From a virus, in the IMG/VR virus record IMGVR_UViG_3300024350_000235, positions 20,372 through 84,371 of that record: a stretch of DNA of 64,000 nt; one strand, written 5' to 3'. The number at the start of each line of letters is the position of its first letter. Position 1 is the first letter of the stretch. A model generated the notes under the pieces. The model saw only the letters and a list, made by a program, of their open reading frames with translations. It was not told the DNA's origin and did no database searches. Shown in pieces: positions 3,246 to 64,000 of this stretch. Position numbers and translations under genes: made by a program.

Positions 3246-3433
3246 TAGTCAATATAGCTAACAAGATCGGACAGGCACACGGAAAGTTTTTTCTGTGGCT
3301 GAGCAAGAAAGCTGAAAGCCATCCTTTGTGGGCAGTGGCATTGACGCTGTGGGCATTGTATGAAATCTTTGAACACATAGCACTACCGACGATTGGTGTG
3401 TTATGGGCGACAGGTGACCTCACACTGCGCTAG
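3242..3433 (+). CDS. Small membrane protein
   Basis: 63 residues with a central hydrophobic segment ('HPLWAVALTLWALYEIFEHI') and a basic N-terminal amphipathic region. The start overlaps the upstream stop by 4 nt and the TAG stop lies inside the 5' acceptor arm of the following tRNA. Function unknown. Confidence 0.65.
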   Translation: MIVNIANKIGQAHGKFFLWLSKKAESHPLWAVALTLWALYEIFEHIALPTIGVLWATGDLTLR

Positions 3434-3500
3434 AAGCTCAATGGATAGGCAGAGACTTCTAAACTCTCGATAGCAGGTTCGATTCCTGTCTGGCGCACCA
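3427..3500 (+). tRNA. tRNA-Arg(TCT), alternative fold gives anticodon CTA
   Basis: Acceptor GCGCTAG/CTGGCGC with discriminator A and encoded CCA, T-arm GCAGG-TTCGATT-CCTGT. By alignment with proteobacterial tRNA-Arg(TCT) the anticodon loop is CTTCTAA (anticodon TCT, reads AGA) with one mismatch at the loop end of the stem. Moving the stem by one base gives loop TTCTAAA with anticodon CTA, an amber-suppressor reading, with an equally mismatched stem and a 4-nt variable loop. TCT is preferred because it keeps a 5-nt variable loop. Confidence 0.85.
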
Positions 3501-4225: not shown

Positions 4226-5023
4226 ATGATGCCTAAGACTTATCGCAGCATTTTTATTTCAGATGTTCACCTTGGTACTCGTGACTGTAAGGCTGAACAG
4301 CTCAACAACTTCCTCAAACACAACACCTGCGAAACGCTCTACATGGTAGGCGATATAATCGACGCATGGAAAATCCAACAGAACAAATGGCGCTGGAAGC
4401 AGAGCCATACCAATGTGGTACGCCGTATCATGGGGCATGCCAAGCGTGGTACCCGTGTGGTCTACATAGCAGGCAATCACGATGAGTTCCTGCGCCCTTT
4501 GATGCCCTATGGTATTGGGTTTGGTTTGATAGAAGTCTGTAATCAAACAGAACATGTGGGGCTGGATGGCAAACACTATTTGGTCACACACGGTGATCTA
4601 TTTGACGGCATCACTAGACTGGCACCATGGTTATCATTCCTAGGTGATAAAGCCTATGATTTTGTCTTAGCCGTCAATAGCAAATACAACTGGATACGAC
4701 ATCGTCTAGGCTTTGGCTACTGGAGTCTCAGCAAATATCTCAAAGGACGAGTCAAGAAGGCCGTGGACTTCATGTTCCAGTTTGAACGAAACCTAGCTGC
4801 CTACTGTAAGAAGCGAGGCTTTGATGGTGTCATCTGCGGACACATACATCACGCAGAAATCAAAGACATAGATGGTATAACATACATGAACGACGGCGAC
4901 TGGGTTGAGTCCATGACTGCTCTAGTCGAACATTGGGACGGCCGTTGGGAAATAGTTACATGGACTAAACAGAATGACAAAGACGATACTGATAATAACA
5001 GACAACCTGCCGGAACAGATTAA
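4226..5023 (+). CDS. LpxH-like calcineurin-type metallophosphoesterase
   Basis: About 265 residues with all metallophosphoesterase blocks: 'ISDVHLG', 'MVGDIIDAW', 'AGNHDE', 'VTHGDLFDG' and 'CGHIHHAE'. The organisation resembles UDP-2,3-diacylglucosamine hydrolase (LpxH) and related envelope phosphoesterases. It overlaps the following GT4 gene by 50 nt. Such phosphoesterase-glycosyltransferase pairs also occur in bacteria, so a role in lipid or surface glycan metabolism is plausible. Start: ATG 4220 lies within the late promoter box, ATG 4226 is 5 nt after it, and no Shine-Dalgarno site is visible, so 4226 is preferred. Confidence 0.85.
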   Translation: MMPKTYRSIFISDVHLGTRDCKAEQLNNFLKHNTCETLYMVGDIIDAWKIQQNKWRWKQSHTNVVRRIMGHAKRGTRVVYIAGNHDEFLRPLMPYGIGFGLIEVCNQTEHVGLDGKHYLVTHGDLFDGITRLAPWLSFLGDKAYDFVLAVNSKYNWIRHRLGFGYWSLSKYLKGRVKKAVDFMFQFERNLAAYCKKRGFDGVICGHIHHAEIKDIDGITYMNDGDWVESMTALVEHWDGRWEIVTWTKQNDKDDTDNNRQPAGTD

Positions 5024-5978
5024 TGGCGTGGTTACCACTTACAAAAATATTGAAGCGTGTGCGACTCTGGACGGTTATAACATTGTGGTGCTTCATCCCG
5101 GGTGGTTCCGCTACATTGATTGCCCTTTCTATAACGAAGTCAAACTTGCCTATCCCCGGGCGTTGGGCAAGAAGATTGAGGAGATACGTCCGGATCATAT
5201 CCATATCGCCACAGAGGGTCCTCTTGGTCTGTGGGCTAGAGCATATCTTTCATTGGATACTAGCTATTCTGGGCGTAGGTACAATACTGCTTACCATACT
5301 AAGTTCCCTGAAGGTCTAAAGAAACTCTTAGGTATCCCCGAATGGATCACGTGGCTGTACATACGTTGGTTCCATAAACACGCAGGCAAGGTCTTGACCA
5401 CTACAGATACCATGGTGCGAGAGCTACACGCACACGGATTAGAAATGCCCATAGTGCCTTGGACACGCGGTGTTGATCGTGACATATTCAATCCCAGCTC
5501 TAGGACGACCACACAGTGTACCAAACCCTTGATGGTCTGTGTCAGCCGAGTTAGCAAAGAAAAGAATCTAGAAAAGTTCTTTGAACTGGATCATCCTGGC
5601 ACCAAGATCATGGTAGGCGGCGGTCCTATGTTGGAAACCTACAAACGGAAATATCCTGATGTACATTTCGTAGGGCCAAAAACTGGCAAAGATCTTGCCA
5701 AATATTTTGCCAATGCTGATGTGTTTGTGTTCCCTAGTCGTTGGGAAACGTTTGGATTGGTCATGATAGAAGCCATGGCCTGCGGTACACCTGTTGCTGC
5801 CTATCCCTGCCAAGGACCACTCGATGTCGTGGAAGAAGGTGTCACGGGCTGTATGAACGAAAGTCTAGAACAGGCCGTACAAGATGCTCTCAAGCTGGAT
5901 CGCGATCGAGTATTAGAAGGCAGCTATCGTTGGACCTGGGAACGAGCCTGGGAAATCTTTAAAATCAATTTGGTCTAA
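4974..5978 (+). CDS. GT4-family glycosyltransferase
   Basis: 334 residues, GT-B fold retaining glycosyltransferase. The N-terminal domain has the 'DNLPEQINGVVTTYKN' signature and 'HIATEGPLG'. The C-terminal domain has the nucleotide-sugar site with 'CVSRVSKEKNLEKF' and the EX7E-type motif 'PSRWETFGLVMIEAMACGTP'. It probably transfers a sugar to a lipid or surface glycan; donor and acceptor cannot be read from sequence. The start lies 50 nt inside the preceding phosphoesterase gene, a strong sign of coupling. Confidence 0.9.
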   Translation: MTKTILIITDNLPEQINGVVTTYKNIEACATLDGYNIVVLHPGWFRYIDCPFYNEVKLAYPRALGKKIEEIRPDHIHIATEGPLGLWARAYLSLDTSYSGRRYNTAYHTKFPEGLKKLLGIPEWITWLYIRWFHKHAGKVLTTTDTMVRELHAHGLEMPIVPWTRGVDRDIFNPSSRTTTQCTKPLMVCVSRVSKEKNLEKFFELDHPGTKIMVGGGPMLETYKRKYPDVHFVGPKTGKDLAKYFANADVFVFPSRWETFGLVMIEAMACGTPVAAYPCQGPLDVVEEGVTGCMNESLEQAVQDALKLDRDRVLEGSYRWTWERAWEIFKINLV

Positions 5979-7850: not shown

Positions 7851-8636
7851 ATGGATCCAGTGACCCTATTTGCCCTAGCCAACGGAGCGGTTAGTGCCGT
7901 TAAGGCGGGGTGTAAACTTTATAAAGATATAAAAAGTGCTGCTGGGGACGTTAAAGACGTCCTCAAGGATCTGGACGCCCAATTCCATAAAGCCTACGAA
8001 GGCAAAGGCAAAGCACCCCCTCCCGAAGCTGTCAAGCAACTAAAAGAAGAAAAAGCCCGTGTAGTCGAGCTTAATAAAAAAGCCAACAACAATGAACAAT
8101 CTAACATCTATACAGAAATCGGCAACGAGCTGGGCAAGTACTACGACAATTATTACAAATGTCAAGCGATATTCGAAGAAGAAGAACGACGCAGTCGTAC
8201 TGAAGCTTACCACGGCGATGACAGTCTAGGCAAACGTGCTTTACAAAGAGTCTTGATGCGCAAACAGCTAGAGCAAATGGGCACAGAGCTGCGTGAAATT
8301 ATGGTCTATCAAAGCCCACCAGAACTTGGCGCACTCTATACAGAAGTAGAAGAAATGATGAAAGTCATGGGTAAAGAACAAAAAGCTGCCATGGCTCGAG
8401 AAATACAACAATATCAAAGAGAAGAACGCAGACGACAAATTAGAAAAGAACAGTTAACCAAACAGTTTACAGTAGGTATAGGCATCATGATAGTGATATT
8501 TGTCACTATGTTCATGTTCATGTATGTCATAGATTATAGACAAGAGCGTTTTCCTGATTTAGGTAATTGCCCTATGCCAAAAGGATCTTGGCTATACAAA
8601 AAATGGACTAATACTATTTGGGCTACCTGTGAATAA
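7851..8636 (+). CDS. Tail-anchored coiled-coil membrane protein
   Basis: 261 residues: a short hydrophobic/amphipathic N-terminus (MDPVTLFALANGAVSAVKAG), then a long charged helical region (residues about 25-200), one transmembrane helix 'VGIGIMIVIFVTMFMFMYVI' (about 205-225) and a short C-terminal tail with two Cys. The layout suggests a membrane-anchored scaffold. A TTAAATA box lies about 25 nt upstream. Function unknown. Confidence 0.7.
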   Translation: MDPVTLFALANGAVSAVKAGCKLYKDIKSAAGDVKDVLKDLDAQFHKAYEGKGKAPPPEAVKQLKEEKARVVELNKKANNNEQSNIYTEIGNELGKYYDNYYKCQAIFEEEERRSRTEAYHGDDSLGKRALQRVLMRKQLEQMGTELREIMVYQSPPELGALYTEVEEMMKVMGKEQKAAMAREIQQYQREERRRQIRKEQLTKQFTVGIGIMIVIFVTMFMFMYVIDYRQERFPDLGNCPMPKGSWLYKKWTNTIWATCE

Positions 8637-8642
8637 AAGCTC

Positions 8643-8672
8643 TTGACAGAATATAAATAAACCTGCTACAGT
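8643..8672 (+). promoter_or_regulatory. Sigma70-like promoter of the tmRNA gene
   Basis: TTGACA, 18-nt spacer, TACAGT (-10), placing the transcription start about 8679, just upstream of the acceptor piece. Confidence 0.65.
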
Positions 8673-8689
8673 GTAGCACTATTGCTGTA

Positions 8690-8744
8690 TGAAGCGATGA
8701 AAAAGGTGTTCTGGACGCCGGGGCAGTACCGGCCAGGTCCACCA
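8690..8744 (+). ncRNA. ssrA: Two-piece tmRNA, acceptor piece
   Basis: This is the 3' tRNA-like part, encoded upstream of the coding part. It has a T-stem GCCGG-GGCAGTA-CCGGC with the unusual GGCAGTA loop that I recall from alphaproteobacterial tmRNAs, then acceptor strand CAGGTCC, discriminator A and an encoded CCA (8742-8744). CAGGTCC pairs over 7 bp with GGGCCTG at 8882-8888, the 5' end of the coding piece. The 5' limit is approximate. It would be released from the precursor by processing of the 137-nt intervening segment. Confidence 0.88.
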
Positions 8745-8881
8745 AAAGCACAGAGGTTAGAGATGATTTTTTTACTTTGGAATTGGTTTGCTTACTCGAA
8801 TCAAGATTCGGGTGATCTAAGTAGACACCGTAAACACACTACATTGTATGAAGATCTCTGTATGTGATCTGTGTTTTTGAT
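8745..8881 (+). other. tmRNA intervening segment
   Basis: 137 nt between the mature CCA end and the coding piece; expected to be excised from the permuted precursor. I see no coding signal with a ribosome binding site here. Confidence 0.7.
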
Positions 8882-9045
8882 GGGCCTGAATTAGGTTCGA
8901 CAGGGCAATGAGTATCAGAGTGGACAGCAGGGTAGGCGATGACCCTAAATCAAGCAAACAAACTAGACGCAAACGACAACGTTTACGCACTAGCTGCCTG
9001 AACAAGGTAAGCAGGGGCTGGTAAGCCTGGCAACAGAAACTTCCA
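8882..9045 (+). ncRNA. ssrA: Two-piece tmRNA, coding piece with tag ANDNVYALAA
   Basis: Starts GGGCCTGAATTAGGTTCGAC, the 5' tRNA-like arm of tmRNA. The tag reading frame begins at GCA 8969 and ends with TGA 8999-9001, encoding ANDNVYALAA, a typical ClpXP degron ending in LAA. A pseudoknot-like GC-rich region follows (about 9010-9040). The RNA tags stalled nascent peptides and frees ribosomes. With the acceptor piece encoded upstream, this is the circularly permuted form found in alphaproteobacteria, cyanobacteria and some betaproteobacteria. The 3' end is approximate. Confidence 0.93.
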
Positions 9046-9076
9046 AGATAGGCTACTTCGGTAGCCTATCTCTTTT
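9046..9076 (+). terminator. Rho-independent terminator after tmRNA
   Basis: Perfect 11-bp stem AGATAGGCTAC-TTCG-GTAGCCTATCT followed by CTTTTA. Confidence 0.9.
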
Positions 9077-17143: not shown

Positions 17144-17170
17144 GTTACGGTGCCCAGGTGGGGCTGTAAC
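17144..17170 (+). ncRNA. Chaperone leader hairpin, copy 1 (dnaK)
   Basis: 7-bp stem GTTACGG/CTGTAAC enclosing loop TGCCCAGGTGGGG. A matching element with a different but still paired stem precedes hsp20 at 19113. The shared loop with a covarying stem indicates a conserved RNA element. A second small hairpin, GGGCA...TGCCC, follows at about 17173-17184. Confidence 0.7.
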
Positions 17171-17215
17171 AGGGGCAGTTGCCCAAAACTTACTCGCTTA
17201 TTAAAGGAGAAAACG

Positions 17216-19105
17216 ATGAGTAAAATCATAGGTATCGATCTAGGTACCACTAATTCATGCGTTGCTATTATCGAAAGCAACATTCCAAAAGTAATCGAAA
17301 ACAGCGAGGGTGCTAGAACTACACCGTCTATTATCGCTTATAGTGATGACGAAGTCCTAGTAGGAGCACCAGCTAAACGACAAGCTGTAACAAACCCTAA
17401 AAATACTCTATATGCTGTCAAGCGTTTGATTGGACGCAAGTTCAAAGAAGATGCTGTACAGAAAGATATCGACTTGATGCCGTTTGAGATCATGGAATCT
17501 AAGAATGGCGATGCTTGGGTAAAGGCTAACGGAAAAGAATTGGCTCCTCCACAAGTATCAGCAGAAGTTCTGCGCAAGATGAAAAAGACCGCAGAAGACT
17601 ATCTCGGTCATGAAGTCACCCAAGCAGTTATTACTGTACCTGCGTACTTCAACGACAGCCAACGCCAAGCTACTAAGGACGCTGGCAAGATCGCAGGACT
17701 AGAAGTACTGCGTATTATCAATGAACCAACAGCAGCCGCACTGGCCTACGGTGTTGACAAAGCAGACAAGCGTGATCGTAAGATTGCGGTCTACGACTTA
17801 GGTGGTGGTACATTTGATATTTCAATCATCGAAATCGCTAACGTCGACGGCGACAAGCAAATCGAAGTGTTGTCTACAAACGGTGACACATTCCTGGGTG
17901 GTGAAGACTTTGACCAACGTATCATGGACTACCTAGTAGATGAGTTCAAAAAAGAAAGTGGTATCGATCTCAAGAAAGACACATTGGCGCTACAGCGTTT
18001 GAAAGATTCAGCTGAAAAGGCCAAGATCGAACTGTCTAGCAGTTCACAAACTGAAGTCAACTTGCCATACATCACAGCTGATGCTTCAGGTCCTAAGCAT
18101 CTAAATGTCAAGATCACTCGCGCTAAGTTTGAAGCATTAGTTGACGATTTGATCAAACGTTCTCTAGAACCTTGTAAGACCGCTATGAAAGACGCGGGTG
18201 TAAGTGCCAGCGACATTGACGAAGTTATCCTAGTCGGTGGTCAGACACGTATGCCTAAAGTACAAGAAGCAGTTGAGAAACTGTTTGGTAAAGCACCACG
18301 TAAAGATGTCAATCCAGACGAAGCAGTAGCAGCTGGTGCTGCTATCCAAGGTGCCGTACTAGGTGGCGATCGCACAGACGTTCTATTGCTAGACGTTACA
18401 CCATTGAGTCTTGGTATCGAAACCATGGGCGGTGTGTTTGCTAGATTGATCGACAAGAACACTACTATTCCTACCAAGAAGAGTCAGATCTTTAGCACAG
18501 CAGAAGATAATCAACCTGCTGTTACTATTAAGGTATATCAAGGCGAACGTGATTTGGTACAATACAATAAGATGTTGGGTGTGTTCAATCTAGAAGGTAT
18601 CGCCCCTGCTCCTAGAGGTATTCCGCAGATTGAAGTGACCTTTGATATCGATGCTAATGGTATCATGAACATCGGTGCTAAAGACAAAGGTACTAACAAG
18701 GAAGCCAAGATCACTATCAAAAGCGATAGCGGTCTAAGCGAATCCGAGATCCAGACGATGATCAAGGAAGCAGAAGAAAACGCCGAGAGCGATAAGAAAC
18801 AACGTGAACTTATCGAAGCTCGCAACAGTGCTGAAGCTTTGATTAACTCTACCAAGAAAGATTTGGAAGAACTCAAAGATCAGTTGACAGCTGATGATAT
18901 CACTAAGTTAGAAGAAGCTGTCAAGGCAGCAGAAGACTCATTAGGCTCCGACGATAAAGAAACTATCGGCGAAAAGGTCAATGAAATCTACGCTGCTTCT
19001 AAACCTCTGTTTGACGCCAAAGCCAAGAAAATGGAAGACAGCCAAAAAACAGAGGATAAGAAAGACGATAATGTGGTTGACGCAGAGTTCAAGCAGACTA
19101 CATAA
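17216..19105 (+). CDS. dnaK: Hsp70 chaperone DnaK
   Basis: 629 residues, full length. ATPase domain: '[14 protein letters not shown]' (phosphate 1), '[20 protein letters not shown]', '[14 protein letters not shown]' (phosphate 2) and '[13 protein letters not shown]'. The substrate domain starts after the '[15 protein letters not shown]' linker, and a helical lid ends with '[10 protein letters not shown]'. It folds or refolds phage and host proteins with host DnaJ/GrpE, neither of which is in the window. ATG 17216 follows AAAGGAG by 7 nt; an upstream in-frame extension would run across the leader hairpin. Confidence 0.97.
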
Positions 19106-55943: not shown

Positions 55944-56746
55944 CAGTAGGCCTCTATATGATCTATGCCCAATTTCTTACGGAACTCGTCGGTAAATTTT
56001 CCATCTATTCTTAGACCATAACTCTGTTCCATTATGCGTTCACCGCCGTGCCAGTCAGTGTCGTTCCACCATGCTGCTCTTGTATTGAGATAGGTTTTGT
56101 TTTTTGTTTCTGGATCCCAAAGATAAAATGCTTTTTTAGTATTAGGACGTATGTGTATAAATTCATTCCTATGCGGCTTGATCACATTGATGCCATTAGC
56201 AGCATCTAGATCTCTATGCTCAAATGGAATGCCATCTGCTTCACAGTGAAAGAAAATAACACGACCTATATCAACAAAAATTTCTCCTACCATATTTTCT
56301 ATCCAATTAACTACGTTAGGAAAATATTGTGCTTCGGGTGTTAGCTTTCTAGGTGCTGTTCTGTCATCCCATGAACCTTCTTCCCAAAGGAAATAATAGA
56401 TATATGGATCATATGCCCCCATTGCCATTTTGATATATCTAGTGAATATATTACGTTCTTGAAAATTTTTGAAATCTTTGGGCATCAGTTCTAAGCCTGC
56501 TTGTTTGATAGGATCGCTGTCAGGCAGATCGAGAAAGTCTTTCATGGCTTGATAAATTGGTTTCCAGTTATGGACATAACTCATATTATCAAAAGTAAAT
56601 CCAGGAGTCATCCATGTGCCTTCTTTGGCATGATGCCTAGCCAAAGCAAACCCTTTGTATATTTCGGGCTGTAACCGATCAAACTCTACCATATTTAGGT
56701 AAGGTTCTATATCTATATAAGGTTGATTATTAATTCCTCTGAGCAT
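55943..56746 (-). CDS. 2OG-oxygenase-like protein, 267 residues
   Basis: Start ATG 56746, 5 nt after a late box. 'FEHRDLDAANGINVIKPHRN', 'EFIHIRPNTKKAFYLWDPET' and 'WWNDTDWHGGERIMEQSYGL' give His-x-Asp...His with a later Arg ('YGLRIDG'), the Asp/Asn beta-hydroxylase pattern. First gene of a three-gene minus-strand operon with the SDR-like and a second hydroxylase-like gene. Confidence 0.72.
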   Translation of the reverse strand: MLRGINNQPYIDIEPYLNMVEFDRLQPEIYKGFALARHHAKEGTWMTPGFTFDNMSYVHNWKPIYQAMKDFLDLPDSDPIKQAGLELMPKDFKNFQERNIFTRYIKMAMGAYDPYIYYFLWEEGSWDDRTAPRKLTPEAQYFPNVVNWIENMVGEIFVDIGRVIFFHCEADGIPFEHRDLDAANGINVIKPHRNEFIHIRPNTKKAFYLWDPETKNKTYLNTRAAWWNDTDWHGGERIMEQSYGLRIDGKFTDEFRKKLGIDHIEAY

Positions 56747-56751
56747 AAAAT

Positions 56752-56759
56752 TATTTATA
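56752..56759 (-). promoter_or_regulatory. Late-promoter box TATAAATA
   Basis: Exact consensus on the minus strand, 5 nt before the start at 56746. Confidence 0.6.
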
Positions 56760-56776
56760 GGGTGGTTCCCAGCGGA

Positions 56777-56784
56777 GTTAAATA
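56777..56784 (+). promoter_or_regulatory. Late-promoter-like box GTTAAATA
   Basis: 4 nt before ATG 56789; back-to-back with the minus-strand box at 56752. Confidence 0.5.
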
Positions 56785-56788
56785 TCTG

Positions 56789-57448
56789 ATGATACACGAT
56801 GGTCGATACTATTTGGTAAGCACTGCCAGAAGTCTTAAACTGGACTTAAAAATTCCGCATGAAGAAATGCTAAGTGAAGCCAAAGCACTGCGCGAACACT
56901 TCATAGAATACCGGGCCGATGGTGATCAATATAAAGGTTGGCACAGTTTACCTATACACGGGCTAGGCGATGACAAACCCTATAGCTGGGAAGATTACGG
57001 CTACAAGACAGCTAACGCAGCCAGTGATGATATGAAATGGACTACATGGGCCAATTTATGTCCGGTCACTGTGGCTTGGCTCAAGATGGTCTTTCCTAGC
57101 AAACGTTTTGGTCGGGTGAGGTTTATGTTACTAGAAGCCGGTGGCAGTATAGGTCTACATAAAGACACCGATCATAGCATATTGGAAATGGTAAACATAG
57201 CACTAAACAATCCGGAAGGGTGTGAATGGCATTGGGGTGATGGCAGTAGTCTAGACTTTTCACCAGGTGATGCTTATGCGGTCAATCTTAGCTACGAGCA
57301 TCGAGTGATCAATAACAGTGGAATAGATAGGTATCATCTGATAGTACACCATCATGATTCTACACCAGAATGGGTATCTATGATGAAGAAAGCATTAAAG
57401 GAACATGGCGAAAAAGGTGAGTTTCATCACAGTACGATGCTGTACTGA
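56789..57448 (+). CDS. 2OG-oxygenase-like (aspartyl/asparaginyl hydroxylase type) protein
   Basis: 219 residues from ATG 56789. 'LEAGGSIGLHKDTDHSILEM' (His-x-Asp), 'VNIALNNPEGCEWHWGDGSS', 'GDAYAVNLSYEHRVINNSGI' and 'DRYHLIVHHH' complete a double-stranded beta-helix oxygenase. A longer reading from 56723 crosses the promoter region. Overlaps the next gene by 44 nt. Confidence 0.8.
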   Translation: MIHDGRYYLVSTARSLKLDLKIPHEEMLSEAKALREHFIEYRADGDQYKGWHSLPIHGLGDDKPYSWEDYGYKTANAASDDMKWTTWANLCPVTVAWLKMVFPSKRFGRVRFMLLEAGGSIGLHKDTDHSILEMVNIALNNPEGCEWHWGDGSSLDFSPGDAYAVNLSYEHRVINNSGIDRYHLIVHHHDSTPEWVSMMKKALKEHGEKGEFHHSTMLY

Positions 57449-58679
57449 TGACGAGTGGTTGAACAACAAGATGCTCCAGATCACTAGATCGGGTCAGGAG
57501 CATCTGGTGAACGGAAGATATCCTACATATATCATTGACAACTATGACCAAATCAACAACTACCTAGATGACGCCGATTGGCTATTTGTACAGACAGCAG
57601 GCGACTACATATTAGATTTTGATCACTTATGGACAAAGATACACTCCATACCTGACTATGTAGGACTTGTAGGACATCTAATCTGGGACCAAGGTGAATT
57701 TACTCCCTATCTAGAGGAACAGTGTTTTATTATAAACACCAAAGCTGTTAAACATCTAGATTTTAATTCATATATCGAAACAGGTAAAAACTTCATAAGA
57801 AGCGAAGATGACTTACATGAAGGTCATGCTCCTTTATGGTTAGCATTAGGAGATCGTACAGAGATACGACATGGTAAGTTTGGAACCAAGCTGATGTCAG
57901 ATATCTTAGAGAACGATTACTCTGTAGTAAATTTTGATCAGTCGTGGAGATATTCTGACACGATCAAATTACCTATTAGACAAAATCCCTTGATAGAACA
58001 GCTGCCTACTAGAGGATATCTCTATCCGTATATAAAAACAGTGGCTTTTTCAGAAGCTCTAAAGTCTCTCAAGAGCAGCGATTATCTAGATCCAGCACAG
58101 CAGATAGCACTATCTGTGATCAACGAAACTATGAAGTTTAATTATATCAACGCCCTCTATTGGGATGATATCGTCAAAGACTACGACTGCGACTTAGTCA
58201 TAGCACCTGCTAATGGGCTTATGGCTGAAACTTTGGCCTACTACAATCATGCCAAGAAGATTGTGATATACGATATTAATCCAAACAACATAGAATTCAA
58301 AAAATTTCTATATGAAAATTTTGATGGGCATGACTATGAACAATTTTATAAAAAATATGCCAAAGAAAGAAATCTCAAGATAGAACCCAATCATACTGTA
58401 GCGATAACCGATGAAATAAAATACCATAACAGAGAAGTGTTAGCCAATTGGGATAAGATCAAGAAGATAGAAAAGACGTATATCAGTGGTGATCTATTTA
58501 CGACATTGCCTTGGATACTTCCTCTTATAAGCAGCAAGACTATCATACACACTAGCACTATCTTAGGATACTATATCTTTTCCAATATACTACACGACCA
58601 AGAAGAGATAGATATGCGTGTAAGTGAACTATCAGCAGTTATAGAATCCACTGGAGCCGTTTGGTTAGGAGAAAGATGA
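57405..58679 (+). CDS. Hypothetical two-domain protein, Rossmann-like C-terminus
   Basis: 424 residues. The N-terminal half ('TYIIDNYDQINNYLDDADWL', 'FVQTAGDYILDFDHLW') resembles glycosyltransferase-A-like sequences. The C-terminal half has 'CDLVIAPANGLMAETLAYYN' and 'AKKIVIYDINPNNIEFKKFL', like a SAM- or NAD-binding Rossmann segment. No catalytic residues assigned. Overlaps neighbours on both sides. Confidence 0.65.
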   Translation: MAKKVSFITVRCCTDDEWLNNKMLQITRSGQEHLVNGRYPTYIIDNYDQINNYLDDADWLFVQTAGDYILDFDHLWTKIHSIPDYVGLVGHLIWDQGEFTPYLEEQCFIINTKAVKHLDFNSYIETGKNFIRSEDDLHEGHAPLWLALGDRTEIRHGKFGTKLMSDILENDYSVVNFDQSWRYSDTIKLPIRQNPLIEQLPTRGYLYPYIKTVAFSEALKSLKSSDYLDPAQQIALSVINETMKFNYINALYWDDIVKDYDCDLVIAPANGLMAETLAYYNHAKKIVIYDINPNNIEFKKFLYENFDGHDYEQFYKKYAKERNLKIEPNHTVAITDEIKYHNREVLANWDKIKKIEKTYISGDLFTTLPWILPLISSKTIIHTSTILGYYIFSNILHDQEEIDMRVSELSAVIESTGAVWLGER

Positions 58680-59359
58680 AGTACGAATACTATTACAATC
58701 AGATGCCAGGGCAAGAACCTTGGCGCAACAATCTGATCTATACCAGCCTTATGAGCGAAGATGGTACTGTATTCGTACAATGGTACTATAATGATACTGC
58801 CTATCACCAAGGGCAGAATCAGGTAGTGGATCCCGAATTGATGGAAGAAAAATGGCAACGTGAGCTAAAGTATCTACAGCTGATGCGAGCTTCGCACAGT
58901 CATCTGGTGCCAGAAATACTAGACATCGATTACAAGTATAGAAAAATCTATCTGCGTGTCAATGGCAACGACTTTTGGCAGCGTAAGCTAGACGTTGGCA
59001 GTTTCGATGCTGTGTTGCCCAATTGGCGTGAACAGATGTTGGAAATCATAGACGCACACAAGAAGCTAAAATTACACAAATACAGCATGCATCCCAGCAG
59101 CTATTTCCTAGTCGACGGACAGTTGAAAAGCATCAACTACTTTTTTACCTATCACGACAGCGAACCTTATATCAGCATAGCCGACGTAGAAAGCCATATC
59201 TATTCTACGAGACAGGAACAGATGAAGAAAGTGTTAGCTGAAAGCACGATTAGCTGGAACGATCCGCAACCCTGGACCACTTTCGATTGGCTGTGTTGGA
59301 ACAGCTTTAGATCAGAATATCCAGCAGATTTCGTAGAGGAAGCATTAAAACATGTTTAA
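58676..59359 (+). CDS. Hypothetical protein, kinase-fold-like, paralog B
   Basis: 227 residues from ATG 58676 (GGAGAAAG upstream). Paralog of the protein at 54179: both have 'TSLMSEDGTVFVQWYYND / TPLVSPDGKTFCMDYNYP', 'EEKWQRELKYL / ELMWQREVEFV' and 'MHPSSYFLVDGQLKSINYFF / VYPHSYYYDGIGNLRTFDFY'. Role unknown. Overlaps the next gene by 8 nt. Confidence 0.65.
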   Translation: MKYEYYYNQMPGQEPWRNNLIYTSLMSEDGTVFVQWYYNDTAYHQGQNQVVDPELMEEKWQRELKYLQLMRASHSHLVPEILDIDYKYRKIYLRVNGNDFWQRKLDVGSFDAVLPNWREQMLEIIDAHKKLKLHKYSMHPSSYFLVDGQLKSINYFFTYHDSEPYISIADVESHIYSTRQEQMKKVLAESTISWNDPQPWTTFDWLCWNSFRSEYPADFVEEALKHV

Positions 59360-59909
59360 ACTCATACGCTGGAACCCCGATCTAGATCTTTCGGACTTTT
59401 ACAGGCGAGCAGCAGCCAAAGGTTTTGAAAATAATTCCAATCAGCAGATCATGATCGATTCTTTGAGCAAAGAAGAACGATGGGCCGCATGGATTTTATA
59501 TTATAATGATCTAGCTGCTGGTGCTGTAGCTGCGCATTCTTTTCCTGAGATGGGAGAAAATGCTTATAGGATCTGCGCCAGGACTTGTGTACTATCTGAT
59601 GATCTGCCTTTACATCATTTGAGAACCAAATGGGGAATCATACGGCATCAAAACTACACCGCACAGTTTTTCATACCTGCCTGTATAGAATGGGCCGGTC
59701 GTGACAAAGATCTTTACATCACTAGCAATGAAAGCAAATCAGGTAGCCAAAGACTGGTACATGAAATTTTTTGTCCTTTATTAGCCAAAAGTGGTGTACT
59801 TTCCAAAACAAAGGATATATACTATAGAGGTCTTACACAAACTGCTTGGCGTCTCGATGTTGAGCTGTTTTTTAAGCAACTAGATCAATTTGGTAGATGG
59901 GTGTTGTAA
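59352..59909 (+). CDS. Hypothetical protein, GNAT-like fold possible
   Basis: 185 residues. 'AAWILYYNDLAAGAVAAHSF', 'AYRICARTCVLSDDLPLHHL', 'YITSNESKSGSQRLVHEIFC' recall the strand order of N-acetyltransferases, without a clear acetyl-CoA P-loop. Last gene of the radical SAM island. Followed by a promoter and leader. Confidence 0.6.
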   Translation: MFKLIRWNPDLDLSDFYRRAAAKGFENNSNQQIMIDSLSKEERWAAWILYYNDLAAGAVAAHSFPEMGENAYRICARTCVLSDDLPLHHLRTKWGIIRHQNYTAQFFIPACIEWAGRDKDLYITSNESKSGSQRLVHEIFCPLLAKSGVLSKTKDIYYRGLTQTAWRLDVELFFKQLDQFGRWVL

Positions 59910-59944
59910 AAATGCAACAATTTTACCAAAAATGAATCTAGGGG

Positions 59945-59973
59945 TTGACAACGAGACTAAATAAACTTATACT
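59945..59973 (+). promoter_or_regulatory. Sigma70-like promoter of leader/attenuator
   Basis: TTGACA, 17-nt spacer, TATACT; start expected near 59980. Confidence 0.75.
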
Positions 59974-60014
59974 TGGACTAACTGTTAGAAATAACAGAAA
60001 GGAAACTGAAGCAA

Positions 60015-60164
60015 ATGAAATCATCGACATTACATAGACAAATGATACAGAAAGCGCAATTGGGCGGCTTTAATGCCACCTATTGGCCCGTATGTTCAAT
60101 TAGTCTCGCTAATGATCGTACACCAGAGCTACAGCCGGGGTCCACGAAGGATACGATGATGTAA
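60015..60164 (+). CDS. Leader peptide candidate, 49 residues
   Basis: ATG 60015 to TAA 60162-60164, product MKSSTLHRQMIQKAQLGGFN...TKDTMM. AAAGGAAA lies about 10 nt upstream. The 3' part of the frame covers CCGGGGTCC (60135-60143), one arm of the alternative leader structure, so its translation could influence the downstream terminator. Coding status is uncertain. Confidence 0.5.
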   Translation: MKSSTLHRQMIQKAQLGGFNATYWPVCSISLANDRTPELQPGSTKDTMM

Positions 60165-60221
60165 CACAAATTACACATCAAGAATTCAAAGGACCCCAGG
60201 ATTAAAAACCCTGGGGTTTTT
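60137..60221 (+). promoter_or_regulatory. Attenuator-like leader: alternative pairing and terminator
   Basis: GGACCCC (60191-60197) can pair either with GGGGTCC (60137-60143), enclosing a further GATG...CATC helix, or, through CCCCAGG (60194-60200), with CCTGGGG (60210-60216), which is followed by T5 and forms a strong terminator. The two pairings exclude each other, the usual design of attenuators and riboswitches. It controls the gene at 60240 if functional. Confidence 0.6.
60194..60221 (+). terminator. Rho-independent terminator in leader
   Basis: CCCCAGG-ATTAAAAAC-CCTGGGG-TTTTT. Confidence 0.88.
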
Positions 60222-60239
60222 GTTTATAAGGAATGAAGA

Positions 60240-60428
60240 ATGGAATGGAAATACGAAAACATCGATCATAGCAAGCTCAATGATCGTATCGTCGAGCAAG
60301 CATATCATGGAACGCTTCCATCTGTTTTAAACGAGGAAAGTGTTCAGCGTATGATCGCTGACAAGATTGAAAGAGCAAAACAGGAAAGAAACTGCTTAGT
60401 TAAGCTAGGTTACTTTACTGAGAACTAA
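60240..60428 (+). CDS. Small helical protein
   Basis: 62 residues, AAGGAATGAAG upstream. 'RMIADKIERAKQERNCLVKL' suggests a helix; ends GYFTEN. Located between the attenuator and the tRNA-array RNAs. Function unknown. Confidence 0.68.
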   Translation: MEWKYENIDHSKLNDRIVEQAYHGTLPSVLNEESVQRMIADKIERAKQERNCLVKLGYFTEN

Positions 60429-60431
60429 AGT

Positions 60432-60662
60432 GTGTATAGGGAACGCGGCCCTGCTGGCACTATAAACATCGGCTATTAACGTGGGCGGCCTGGGGGATGA
60501 GAAGCCTGTGGCGGAAACGCAGGTGGTAAAAACCCAGTGTAGTTAAACACTCTCTCTTGCCTTTGAAACAGGCATGACAGCATAGCGGAGAGTGCTTAAC
60601 TACCCACACCTACCCTTCTCCCCCTGACGGATAAAACGCATAGCGGCTGGAATAGGTGTGGT
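60432..60662 (+). ncRNA. Structured RNA with predicted pseudoknot
   Basis: About 230 nt without a gene. A 16-nt arm (60539-60554) pairs at 15 of 16 positions with 60588-60603 around a TGCCT/AGGCA hairpin; CCACACCTA (60604-60612) pairs with TAGGTGTGG (60653-60661); and GGGG...GAGAAG (60492-60504) pairs with CTTCTCCCCC (60615-60624) inside that loop, making a pseudoknot. It ends 10 nt before tRNA-Tyr, so it may be co-processed with the tRNA array. No known family assigned by eye. Confidence 0.7.
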
Positions 60663-60671
60663 ACATAATTT

Positions 60672-60757
60672 GGAGGCGTGTGCCGAGCAGCGAAGGCAGC
60701 GGTCTGTAAAACCGTGACATAGAAACAGCGTAGGTGCGAGTCCTACCGCCTCCACCA
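60672..60757 (+). tRNA. tRNA-Tyr(GTA)
   Basis: Acceptor GGAGGCG/CGCCTCC, loop CTGTAAA, long variable arm as expected for Tyr, CCA encoded. Confidence 0.93.
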
Positions 60758-60785
60758 TATTCACGCTAAATATTAGGCAAGGAGA

Positions 60786-61223
60786 ATGCCTATGATAGCT
60801 ACTAAATTTACTACGACTAACAATGATTCTAATTTTACAACCATCGACGAGTTCAGTGGGTGGTTAAGGGATCTTGTAGGAATAGAATATTTTAAAGAAC
60901 TGACTTATATTAGGTCGGATGCGATCATAGACGGAATTGCTACTCCTGTAGGTAGTTATTATTGGGAAGCAGAAACAAAGAGTGCGATTTATATGGTCTT
61001 TCATCGAGATCTGCTTGACGCTAAATCCTTCCAATTAAATTACCTTTCTAATGATATAGCACGTTCTGTAGAGCAGGCCGTCAAAGAACACGGTTGGTCT
61101 ATTAAGATGGAATCACTATCAGCAGATCCTGATCCGGAAGTTAGCAATTTCCAAATCATAGATCATCCTACAAACGTAGAAAACATACGCCCTAGCAGAA
61201 GAACAGAAATTAGCGGCCCTTAA
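60786..61223 (+). CDS. Hypothetical protein
   Basis: 145 residues, start chosen with AAGGAG upstream and a CTAAATA box at about 60767. 'TTIDEFSGWLRDLVGIEYFK', 'YYWEAETKSAIYMVFHRDLL'. No family recognised. ATG 60792 is an equally possible start. Its last codons lie in the following tRNA-Arg. Confidence 0.65.
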   Translation: MPMIATKFTTTNNDSNFTTIDEFSGWLRDLVGIEYFKELTYIRSDAIIDGIATPVGSYYWEAETKSAIYMVFHRDLLDAKSFQLNYLSNDIARSVEQAVKEHGWSIKMESLSADPDPEVSNFQIIDHPTNVENIRPSRRTEISGP

Positions 61224-61291
61224 CTCAGCTGGACCAGAGTGCTTGTCTTCGAAACAAGAAGTCGGGAGTTCGAATCTCTCAGGGCCGGCCA
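61214..61291 (+). tRNA. tRNA-Arg(TCG)
   Basis: Acceptor CGGCCCT/AGGGCCG, stem CTTGT, loop CTTCGAA, stem ACAAG, T-arm GGGAG-TTCGAAT-CTCTC, CCA encoded. Reads CGA. Confidence 0.9.
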
Positions 61292-61297
61292 ATCATT

Positions 61298-61371
61298 ATC
61301 GGACTGATGTAACGGCAGCATGACGGTCTCCAAAACCGTTCGTTGGGGTTCAAATCCCTAGTCCGGTGCCA
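61298..61371 (+). tRNA. tRNA-Trp(CCA)
   Basis: Acceptor ATCGGAC/GTCCGGT, anticodon arm ACGGT-CTCCAAA-ACCGT, CCA encoded, discriminator G. Confidence 0.92.
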
Positions 61372-61374
61372 TTT

Positions 61375-61452
61375 ACCACTTTAGCTCAACTGGATAAGAG
61401 CACAACCTTGCGAAGGTTGAGGTTAGGGGTTCGAGTCCCTTAAGTGGTGCCA
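61375..61452 (+). tRNA. tRNA-Arg(GCG)
   Basis: Acceptor ACCACTT/AAGTGGT, anticodon arm CAACC-TTGCGAA-GGTTG, T-arm AGGGG-TTCGAGT-CCCTT, CCA encoded. Anticodon GCG is uncommon because bacteria normally read CGU/CGC with ACG (inosine). Confidence 0.88.
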
Positions 61453-61865
61453 AAGATGTCTGGATGTGAAGGTTTAACTGTAACATTTATGACTTTGCTG
61501 ACAAATTTAAAATGTCGGCTCAACGTATCAAATATTTCGATGTTAAGTGCTTGACCTGCTCGGCTATAACTGTTACTGCCTATAGCACCATAGTAATCTA
61601 TGTCAAGACCTTTGCGTCGACCATAGTCAGGAAATACACCACAAAGAAAGAGACATTCGTCTCCTAAGCTCTTAGCATCATGTGAGTTTTTTATCCTATG
61701 ATAAGTTTCTATGAAACTATCTTCGGGCATCCAGTTTGGACGATCGATATGGCTGGCGAGCAACATGACTACATATTGCTCGACGAACAACGGCAGCTCA
61801 TACCCGTAACTATCTTTAGTTTGGTTAATGAGCAGCTTGAATGCTGAAACGTATTCATCGCTCAT
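61440..61865 (-). CDS. Hypothetical protein, DUF-type phage protein
   Basis: 141 residues from ATG 61865, 5 nt after a late box. 'IDRPNWMPEDSFIETYHRIK', 'ECLFLCGVFPDYGRRKGLDI', 'YGAIGSNSYSRAGQALNIEI'. No family recognised. A longer reading would run through tRNA-His and is rejected. Its 3' end overlaps tRNA-Arg(GCG) by 13 nt on the opposite strand. Confidence 0.7.
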   Translation of the reverse strand: MSDEYVSAFKLLINQTKDSYGYELPLFVEQYVVMLLASHIDRPNWMPEDSFIETYHRIKNSHDAKSLGDECLFLCGVFPDYGRRKGLDIDYYGAIGSNSYSRAGQALNIEIFDTLSRHFKFVSKVINVTVKPSHPDIFGTT

Positions 61866-61870
61866 AATAA

Positions 61871-61878
61871 TATTTATT
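61871..61878 (-). promoter_or_regulatory. Late-promoter-like box AATAAATA
   Basis: 5 nt before the minus-strand start at 61865; predicted leaderless. Confidence 0.5.
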
Positions 61879-61883
61879 TCAGA

Positions 61884-61957
61884 GGTGTCTTTAGTGTAGT
61901 GGTAGCAAAGCTGACTGTGAATCAGCAGGCGAGGGTTCGATTCCCCAAGGCACCCCA
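61884..61957 (+). tRNA. tRNA-His(GTG), copy 1
   Basis: Extra 5' G (G-1 at 61884) opposite discriminator C, the His identity pair; acceptor GTGTCTT/AAGGCAC, anticodon arm GCTGA-CTGTGAA-TCAGC, CCA encoded. Confidence 0.93.
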
Positions 61958-62119
61958 TTTTAAGGGATAGACGATAGTTTAGAGTCCCTGCCAGTCTAGG
62001 CACAGTGGGGTTGACTGTGTTGACACTATAGTATGACTGAAGCCGGTATGTTAAACTTGACTATTCGAGACAATCTAGCGAGTCCTCCCAGGAGGATAGT
62101 TAGGCGCCCGACCTTTTAT
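61958..62119 (+). other. Intergenic 162 nt with hairpins, possible RNA
   Basis: Contains AGGGA...TCCCT and a TCCTCC-CA-GGAGGA hairpin (about 62083-62096). No gene seen; may be part of the tRNA precursor or a separate RNA. Confidence 0.4.
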
Positions 62120-62197
62120 CTCTGTGTAATGTCAATCTGGTAGACGGCCTGATCTGGAGTCAGGAGGCTGTAGGTTCGAATCCTACCATGGAGACCA
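62120..62197 (+). tRNA. tRNA-Pro(TGG)
   Basis: Acceptor CTCTGTG/CATGGAG, anticodon arm CCTGA-TCTGGAG-TCAGG, T-arm GTAGG-TTCGAAT-CCTAC, CCA encoded. Base 33 is C rather than the normal T. Confidence 0.87.
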
Positions 62198-62203
62198 ATT
62201 TAT

Positions 62204-62278
62204 GCTCTTTTAGTATAAAGGCTATTATTCCGGTTTTGTAGTCCGGCGATTGCGGTTCGAGTCCGTGAAAGAGCACCA
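62204..62278 (+). tRNA. tRNA-Thr(TGT)
   Basis: Acceptor GCTCTTT/AAAGAGC, anticodon arm CCGGT-TTTGTAG-TCCGG with a T-T mismatch next to the loop, T-arm TGCGG-TTCGAGT-CCGTG, CCA encoded. Confidence 0.8.
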
Positions 62279-62358: not shown

Positions 62359-62363
62359 AGTTT

Positions 62364-62425
62364 AAGGATGTTAACAGCAAATTTTATACTCTAGACTTGT
62401 AATCTAACCAGTAAAAATACATCCT
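62364..62425 (+). other. Degenerate tRNA-like element, anticodon loop CTTGTAA
   Basis: 62-nt unit with a 7-bp acceptor-like stem AGGATGT/ACATCCT and an anticodon-like arm TAGA-CTTGTAA-TCTA (TGT, Thr), but no normal T-arm and no CCA. It sits in line with true tRNAs. Could be a decayed tRNA-Thr, a mimic, or a processing signal. Confidence 0.55.
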
Positions 62426-62444
62426 GTTTTTAAAGGAGAACATT

Positions 62445-62736: not shown

Positions 62737-62810
62737 GGGGGTATAACTTAGTGGTAAAGTAGTAGGCTTTTAACCTATTAATCAGGGTTCGATTCCCTGT
62801 GCCCCTACCA
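62737..62810 (+). tRNA. tRNA-Lys(TTT)
   Basis: Acceptor GGGGGTA/TGCCCCT, anticodon arm GTAGG-CTTTTAA-CCTAT, T-arm CAGGG-TTCGATT-CCCTG, CCA encoded. Confidence 0.9.
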
Positions 62811-62811
62811 T

Positions 62812-63010
62812 AAAGAATGACAATTAATGTAGATGTTGCGAAAGTACAGCCTCGAAAACTGTATGAGAGCGCAGAGCGATGCCCAGTTCGTGTGAGTGGG
62901 ACTCAAGTAGCGACTAGTACTACGTACCTCTAACCTGTCGGCCGCTTCAAAGAAAATACAGGTAAAATGATTCCGGATGAGGGAGGCGGAATAATTAGTT
63001 GTCATCCTTT
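62812..63010 (+). ncRNA. Structured RNA closed by a long stem
   Basis: A 12-bp closing helix ATGACAATTAAT (62817-62828) with ATTAGTTGTCAT (62994-63005), extended by AAAG/CTTT, encloses about 165 nt with internal hairpins TACAG/CTGTA, ACCTGT/ACAGGT and ATTCCG/CGGAAT. It fills exactly the space between tRNA-Lys(TTT) and tRNA-Met. No gene and no known family recognised. Confidence 0.72.
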
Positions 63011-63012
63011 AT

Positions 63013-63088
63013 GGTAACGTAGCATAGTGGCTAATGCAGCACCTTCATACGGTGTTTATCGTGAGTTCGAGTCTCACCGTTACTACCA
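63013..63088 (+). tRNA. tRNA-Met(CAT)
   Basis: Acceptor GGTAACG/CGTTACT, anticodon arm GCACC-TTCATAC-GGTGT, T-arm GTGAG-TTCGAGT-CTCAC, CCA encoded. Could be elongator Met or, with lysidine, Ile(AUA). Confidence 0.9.
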
Positions 63089-63753: not shown

Positions 63754-64000
63754 AAGAACAGACCCCCGCTTTGCCAGGTTGTGCGGTGAACAATCTGGCA
63801 TTTCAGATATATAATATGTTGTCTAAAGTAAAAGGGCTCGTGGCGATATAGTTGTTCCGTAGGACGATAGCTGGCTCCGGAAGGGCTAACTTGAAGGGTT
63901 TATAAAACTCACAACTAGTGGAAAATGACGGATAGTGGTTACAGCATGAGGCCGTTGACTGCTAAGTCGCTCCATGTTAGGCGAGACAAATAAAGTGGTG
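63754..64000 (+). ncRNA. Structured region, probable RNA, 3' partial
   Basis: No gene seen. A TGCCAG...CTGGCA hairpin (about 63774-63802) is followed by several GC-rich short repeats ('GGCTCGTGGCGATATAG', 'CTGGCTCCGGAAGGGC', 'GACTGCTAAGTC') up to the window end. May be another array-linked structured RNA that continues beyond the window. Confidence 0.5.

Follow-up and report, generated by a model that had tools for sequence, protein, structure and literature searches.

A probable family of structured non-coding RNAs with a self-complementary loop in tRNA arrays of related very large phages

An RNA element between tRNA-Lys and tRNA-Met

The window analyzed here, that is, the whole 64-kb stretch of DNA under study, is the right-hand part (20,372-84,371) of an 84,371-base IMG/VR virus record (IMGVR_UViG_3300024350_000235), and its last 3.3 kb form a tRNA array according to ARAGORN. 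Within this array, tRNA-Lys(TTT) (62737-62810, plus strand) and tRNA-Met(CAT) (63013-63088, plus strand) lie directly upstream and directly downstream of a gap (62811-63012). An Rfam scan of the gap, at gathering score and at E 5, returned only tRNAs and chance matches, and no tRNA was called within it by ARAGORN (introns disallowed) or by Rfam. The original prediction, made from the letters alone, placed here a multi-hairpin unit closed by a 16-bp stem. Indeed, the minimum-energy fold closed the gap with 4 + 12 = 16 pairs around several hairpins. The terminal stem, with 17 of 18 end positions pairable, was matched by none of 5000 dinucleotide shuffles (shuffled maximum 15). It belongs to a 23-nt inverted repeat (62806-62828 and 62994-63016) that is 91% complementary and extends into both tRNAs. 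The folding energy of the whole gap was ordinary (z -0.68; 49 of 200 shuffles equally or more stable), as was that of gaps 61957-62119 (z -0.98) and 63754-64000 (z -0.74). Energy alone is thus no justification for an RNA claim, and the decisive evidence for the element is its relatives.

Based on the inverted repeat, the fold and the homologues, the element with its complete outer stem spans 62806-63016 on the plus strand, the ends of its arms lying in tRNA-Lys and tRNA-Met. The outer stem P1 (5' arm 62806-62828, 3' arm 62994-63016) surrounds P2, whose strands GUAG (62829-62832) and CUAC (62920-62923) enclose the P3 hairpin GUACAG/CUGUAU with its conserved loop CCUCGAAA (62844-62864) and the P4 region (62865-62919). 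Next come the P5 hairpin ACCUGU/ACAGGU (62933-62963), with the self-complementary loop hexamer CGGCCG (62939-62944) that we propose as the kissing site of a homodimer, and the P6 hairpin AUUCCG/CGGAAU (62970-62992) with loop GAUGAGGGAGG. Elsewhere in the window, a permuted tmRNA gene (8629-9073) matched RF04321 (138.7 bits) as well as the tmRNA model of betaproteobacteria, a hint that the host is betaproteobacterial, and a tRNA with anticodon CTA (3427-3500), a tRNA-Pyl according to ARAGORN, is perhaps an amber suppressor.

A fold and a P5 palindrome kept through compensatory changes

Related records were reached through two proteins of the window, encoded at 17150-19105 and 4974-5978 (80 loci each). 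Relatives of the first are annotated as DnaK in some records, and it also matched the 735-kb uncultured phage record LR756503. Many of the loci found with these proteins were on contigs longer than 100 kb. BLAST of the element against 50 related records gave matches in G027, G049 and G050, two short matches (G003, G015) being left uncounted; the diverged copy in G027 likewise lies between tRNA-Lys and tRNA-Met. Further copies came from IMG/VR scans with four patterns drawn from conserved stretches. The first alignment set contained 17 elements, of which 16 represented types I and II (L176 by its 3' half only) and one, L180, a third type. Our model R1, which is blind to the third type, found the element in three of the 50 related records. 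The third type was also recognized by eye in L232, the array of record G001. This array and twenty more were searched by eye, with a structural descriptor and with a nucleotide model of the 5' half that leaves out P5, yielding 12 more elements of the third type and a family total of 29 distinct elements. The unknown array-linked RNA that had been suspected from the window alone thus recurs in tRNA arrays as 28 other distinct elements.

The structural descriptor was loose, with 29 modules in 21 arrays compared with 12 modules (one with a palindrome) in shuffled sequence, and we inspected the subset with a palindrome or a GG-ending P6 loop; modules in L237 (at 19083), L240 (at 475) and L243 were false. 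Pattern matches without a nearby tRNA were attributed to chance (L179, L182-L193, L195, L196, L198-L203, L205, L207, L209, L210). The 29 likewise exclude L226 (truncated), L101 (marginal, E 0.95) and duplicate sequences, among them L002, L003, L143, L227, L238 and L253-L258. The mis-gapped alignments A4 and A6 were excluded from all counts, and palindromes were counted by a separate script.

The comparison showed a common order of parts in the sequences: outer stem P1, P2 enclosing P3 and P4, then P5, AATG and P6. P1 occurs in versions unrelated in sequence, for example the AUGACAAUU type of the window, a UUUUGUnAG type (most third-type elements and L206, L221, L223, L225, L228) and an L197 type. 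Types I and II have the P3 loop CCUCGAAA, in place of which most third-type elements have UUCGAA; the P4 loop is mostly CUAAUUA in types I and II, and P4 of the third type is often a GGGUUCRAnnCCC hairpin, T-loop-like as judged by eye. In alignment A3 (15 sequences of types I and II), 96.1% of the cells in the 12 pairs of P2-P4 were standard pairs, both sides had changed in eight of the 12, and the covariation score was 0.575; shuffles gave 0.235, none of 500 reaching the observed score, and sliding the partner gave 0.110 at most. The window copy has a P4 rebuilt relative to the other A3 members, diverged and approximately 10 nt longer, and scored 64.7 bits with model R1, on its P2-P4 part, when the other full-length members scored 98.5-115.6. 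Across 27 elements, P5 was re-paired many times and P6 presented 18 different 5' strands, each with its matching 3' strand (four pairs only in L176). The original prediction would have fallen with a rapidly changing sequence lacking covariation; the sequence does change fast, but its pairs covary, and the alignments show a fold kept by compensatory changes. The tRNA strand was taken as the RNA strand, since five P2-P4 cells are G-U on this strand and the three A-C cells come from P3 columns in which the stem is displaced by a one-base gap. By eye, we also noted a candidate pseudoknot pairing the P6 loop with the ACC that precedes P5 (CCUC with GAGG), with variants CCAC with GUGG in L219 and L222 and CU with AG in L204.

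The most telling feature of the RNA, which the original prediction lacked, is the palindromic P5 loop. In all 29 elements this loop starts with a 6-nt palindrome, and eight different hexamers were observed: GCCGGC (15 elements), CCCGGG (5), CGGCCG (2, including the window), TCCGGA (2), CTCGAG (2), GGGCCC (1), GCTAGC (1) and CAGCTG (1). When the 3' letters were shuffled among elements, the 29 rows gave a mean of 7.07 palindromes (maximum 15 in 20000 trials) and the eight distinct hexamers a mean of 0.41 (maximum 4), the observed level being reached by none of 20000. Only 20 of 1271 other GC-rich hexamers of the same RNAs were palindromic, and 33 other registers gave zero or one palindrome among the first 17 elements. 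The register was set by eye, and in 27 of 27 elements the palindrome follows the 5' strand of P5 directly or after one base. There is some search bias, as one search pattern itself contained GCCGGC and matches seven of the 15 elements with this hexamer; the four first found through this pattern also match the P3 pattern, which is independent of P5. Moreover, the palindrome was present in all full-length hits of the P3 pattern and in all hits of the 5'-half model (L252 was read separately). Elements as close as L236 and L240, identical at 190 of 211 positions, have GCCGGC and CTCGAG, respectively. At the level of sequence, the P5 hexamer is therefore shown to have varied into eight forms yet always to be self-complementary. 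Because neighboring loop bases cannot pair within one chain, change that preserves the palindrome points to pairing of two chains, and pairing between two copies of the RNA is the best explanation of the P5 palindromes. A GC-rich 6-nt palindrome in a hairpin loop also makes RNA homodimers at the HIV-1 dimerization initiation site, which is part of a retroviral genome rather than a free small RNA and is unrelated to the RNA described here. Two-chain pairing in OLE and GOLLD has been argued likewise from loop change (PMC12286853).

The tRNA arrays and their apparent exchange

The outer stem begins at most 5 bases from the end of the upstream tRNA in 22 of 28 elements (L252 being outside this table); in the remaining ones the upstream tRNA is farther off (four) or none was called (two). 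The flanking tRNAs vary by array and include Lys-Met, Gln-Ser, Asn-Gln, Thr-Gln, Ser-Ile, Cys-Ile and others. The array of the window continues in contigs L002 and L003, which are identical or nearly so from approximately 61955, and L002 carries 37 tRNAs according to ARAGORN. Record G001 is 99.7% identical to the window over 56097-62213 and has a different array beyond; neither BLAST nor model R1 found a close copy of the window element in it, and a third-type element was located between its Asn and Gln tRNAs. Since G001 matches the window and then diverges within the array, the array was replaced, with a family member in both versions. The family is patchy: among the 50 related records, 25 had at least 20 tRNA matches and 16 of these contained the RNA (three by R1, 13 by the 5'-half model), the nine others having been read incompletely for the third type.

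The tRNA arrays seem to be exchanged as blocks. The two records that are 99.7% identical over 6 kb split after tRNA-Pro (window 62213, L232 6115), and L002 has the array of the window without its upstream flank (window 61955, L002 6854). In G001, another RNA, 96 nt in length and closed by a long stem of its own (L232 8708-8803), occupies the gap between tRNA-Lys(TTT) and tRNA-Met, where the window has its element.

The neighboring gaps 61957-62119 and 63754-64000, also suspected of encoding RNA, do have relatives in other arrays, the former in L170, L128, L206, L219 and L223 and the RNA starting at 63754 in L170, L180, L092/L097, L204, L102 and L219. The broader proposal that the array alternates tRNAs with RNAs stood in part: some gaps are RNAs conserved in other phages, and other gaps hold open reading frames. 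Six gap RNAs were conserved between arrays (window 60425-60671, 61957-62119 and 63754-64000; L002 9925-10011, 10254-10387 and 11819-12161), several of them with long closing stems, and the one at L002 9925-10011 is differently placed in L170.

The arrays also contain apparent circularly permuted tRNA genes (L002 9042-9165; L170 8809-8934, minus strand), in which the T-arm half precedes the D-arm half within a frame of AAGGATAC..ACAGCAAA and GTATCCTG or close variants. These genes were missed by ARAGORN and have BLAST relatives in L180, L204, L206, L208 and L223. The same AAGGAT..ACAGCAA / ATCCTG frame surrounds an isolated anticodon stem-loop, with TGT in the window and TTC in L002, and L002 and L204 also have it as an intron-like insert in a tRNA that is ordinary in other respects; its sites include window 62362-62440 and L002 6383-6453 and 9516-9640. 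This frame may be an unrecognized tRNA splicing or anticodon-swap element.

Known RNA families and the proposed working of the RNA

The GOLLD covariance model (RF02032) matched neither the window array at E 5 nor the copy of the element in L249 at E 10, where a true GOLLD (216 bits) lies approximately 350 nt away. ROOL, which we take to be included in Rfam 15, had no Rfam match in the window scans or in seven relatives at gathering score, among the best 150 of 203 rows. A possible likeness of parts to Y RNA, RNase P and group I introns found no support in Rfam. When the region and two members were compared by BLAST with 50,697 phage records, the matches listed, if any, were to tRNAs only, so no named phage was found with this RNA. 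A search of papers on ROOL and GOLLD, tRNA arrays of huge phages, structured phage RNAs, palindromic kissing loops and RNA nanocages also turned up no description of it, though it covered few subscription papers and is no proof. The accessible part of the huge-phage paper (PMC7162821) reports up to 67 tRNAs, and also tmRNAs, and mentions no array RNAs of other kinds.

RNA-only homo-oligomers were a surprise of 2025, resting on three large RNAs (PMC12286853). Like GOLLD, the RNA described here is located in phage tRNA islands, even in the same arrays, and a self-complementary loop kept through compensatory change, as in self-associating RNAs of tRNA islands, was found in 29 of 29 elements. GOLLD assembles into a homo-oligomer, in part through symmetric kissing loops of which one covaries (PMC12286853), and the P5 loop is predicted to pair with itself. 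However, GOLLD is much longer (model of 416 positions) and shares no sequence-structure match with the new RNA. ROOL, a phage RNA near tRNA islands that forms an RNA-only oligomer with kissing loops, measures 659 nt in the solved example (same source), against roughly 174-264 nt for the new family. OLE is a dimer whose symmetric kissing loop switches among the palindromes GGCC, GAUC and AGCU (PMC12286853); unlike the new RNA it is longer, and none was found nearby or matched in the scans made.

Taken from sequence comparison, the evidence makes it quite likely that these elements are a new family of structured non-coding RNAs in tRNA arrays of related very large phages, excised and homodimeric through a kissing loop. 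The RNA would be transcribed together with the tRNAs and released by the cuts that mature the neighboring tRNA ends; in members with a long P1, like the window copy, RNase III perhaps also frees it. Two copies would then join through a symmetric six-pair kissing loop at P5, and this dimer, or a larger assembly of it, would be a stable RNA-only particle made during infection. As the RNA travels with tRNAs, it might influence translation or the metabolism of tRNAs, for instance if it held or sequestered a factor associated with tRNAs or ribosomes. In behavior, though not in ancestry, the RNA is probably a smaller cousin of GOLLD and ROOL.

A single self-pairing loop gives a dimer only. In a more ambitious and rather unlikely version, P5 would join copies symmetrically while a second contact would link dimers into a closed shell; candidates for this contact are UCGA in the P3 loop, UAAUUA in the P4 loop and the P6 loop itself. 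On this view, the arrays would be a store of several self-assembling RNAs of independent origin, GOLLD included, which might form tRNA compartments during infection.

We consider it improbable that the element is instead a processing spacer, whose long hairpin would position RNase III, RNase E or RNase P between tRNA-Lys and tRNA-Met with a jobless interior. The outer stem of the window is flush with both tRNAs and, as noted, most members start close to an upstream tRNA; yet the interior helices covary, the P3 and P5 loops are conserved or self-complementary, the element is absent between most neighboring tRNAs of the arrays, and some members have no close downstream tRNA (L206, 93 nt; L223, 65 nt; L237, 311 nt).

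Very improbable is membership in a known family, with the RNA as a small GOLLD relative or a relative of the GOLLD 3' domain. GOLLD does occur in the same arrays and has symmetric kissing loops too (PMC12286853), but a cmscan of a stretch with both RNAs matched GOLLD only at its own place, even at E 10, and the sizes differ. Furthermore, five (G002, G034, G042, G043, G048) of the six GOLLD-containing records, among 43 related ones, hold both RNAs together. In this phage group, arrays with GOLLD matches that pass the Rfam cut-off are L249 (12034-12499, with a tRNA-like match inside) and L253-L258.

We give very little credence to a role of the P5 palindrome in DNA, for instance in restriction, methylation or the binding of a protein. 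Each of the eight hexamers is a perfect palindrome in DNA, but with eight different ones no single DNA-binding protein fits, and the hexamer always opens the loop of a covarying RNA hairpin. Hardly credible is a MITE-like mobile insertion landing between tRNAs, for despite a terminal inverted repeat and a position that varies from array to array, the interior helices covary, no target-site duplication was seen by eye at the window copy, and unrelated outer stems (the AUGACAAUU, UUUUGUnAG and L197 types) surround similar interiors, indicating that the ends conserve their pairing rather than their sequence.

If these elements are indeed excised, self-pairing RNAs, a family of approximately 200 nt beside GOLLD suggests that phage tRNA islands habitually harbor self-associating RNAs, and it would offer a small, easily transcribed object for probing what such RNAs do.
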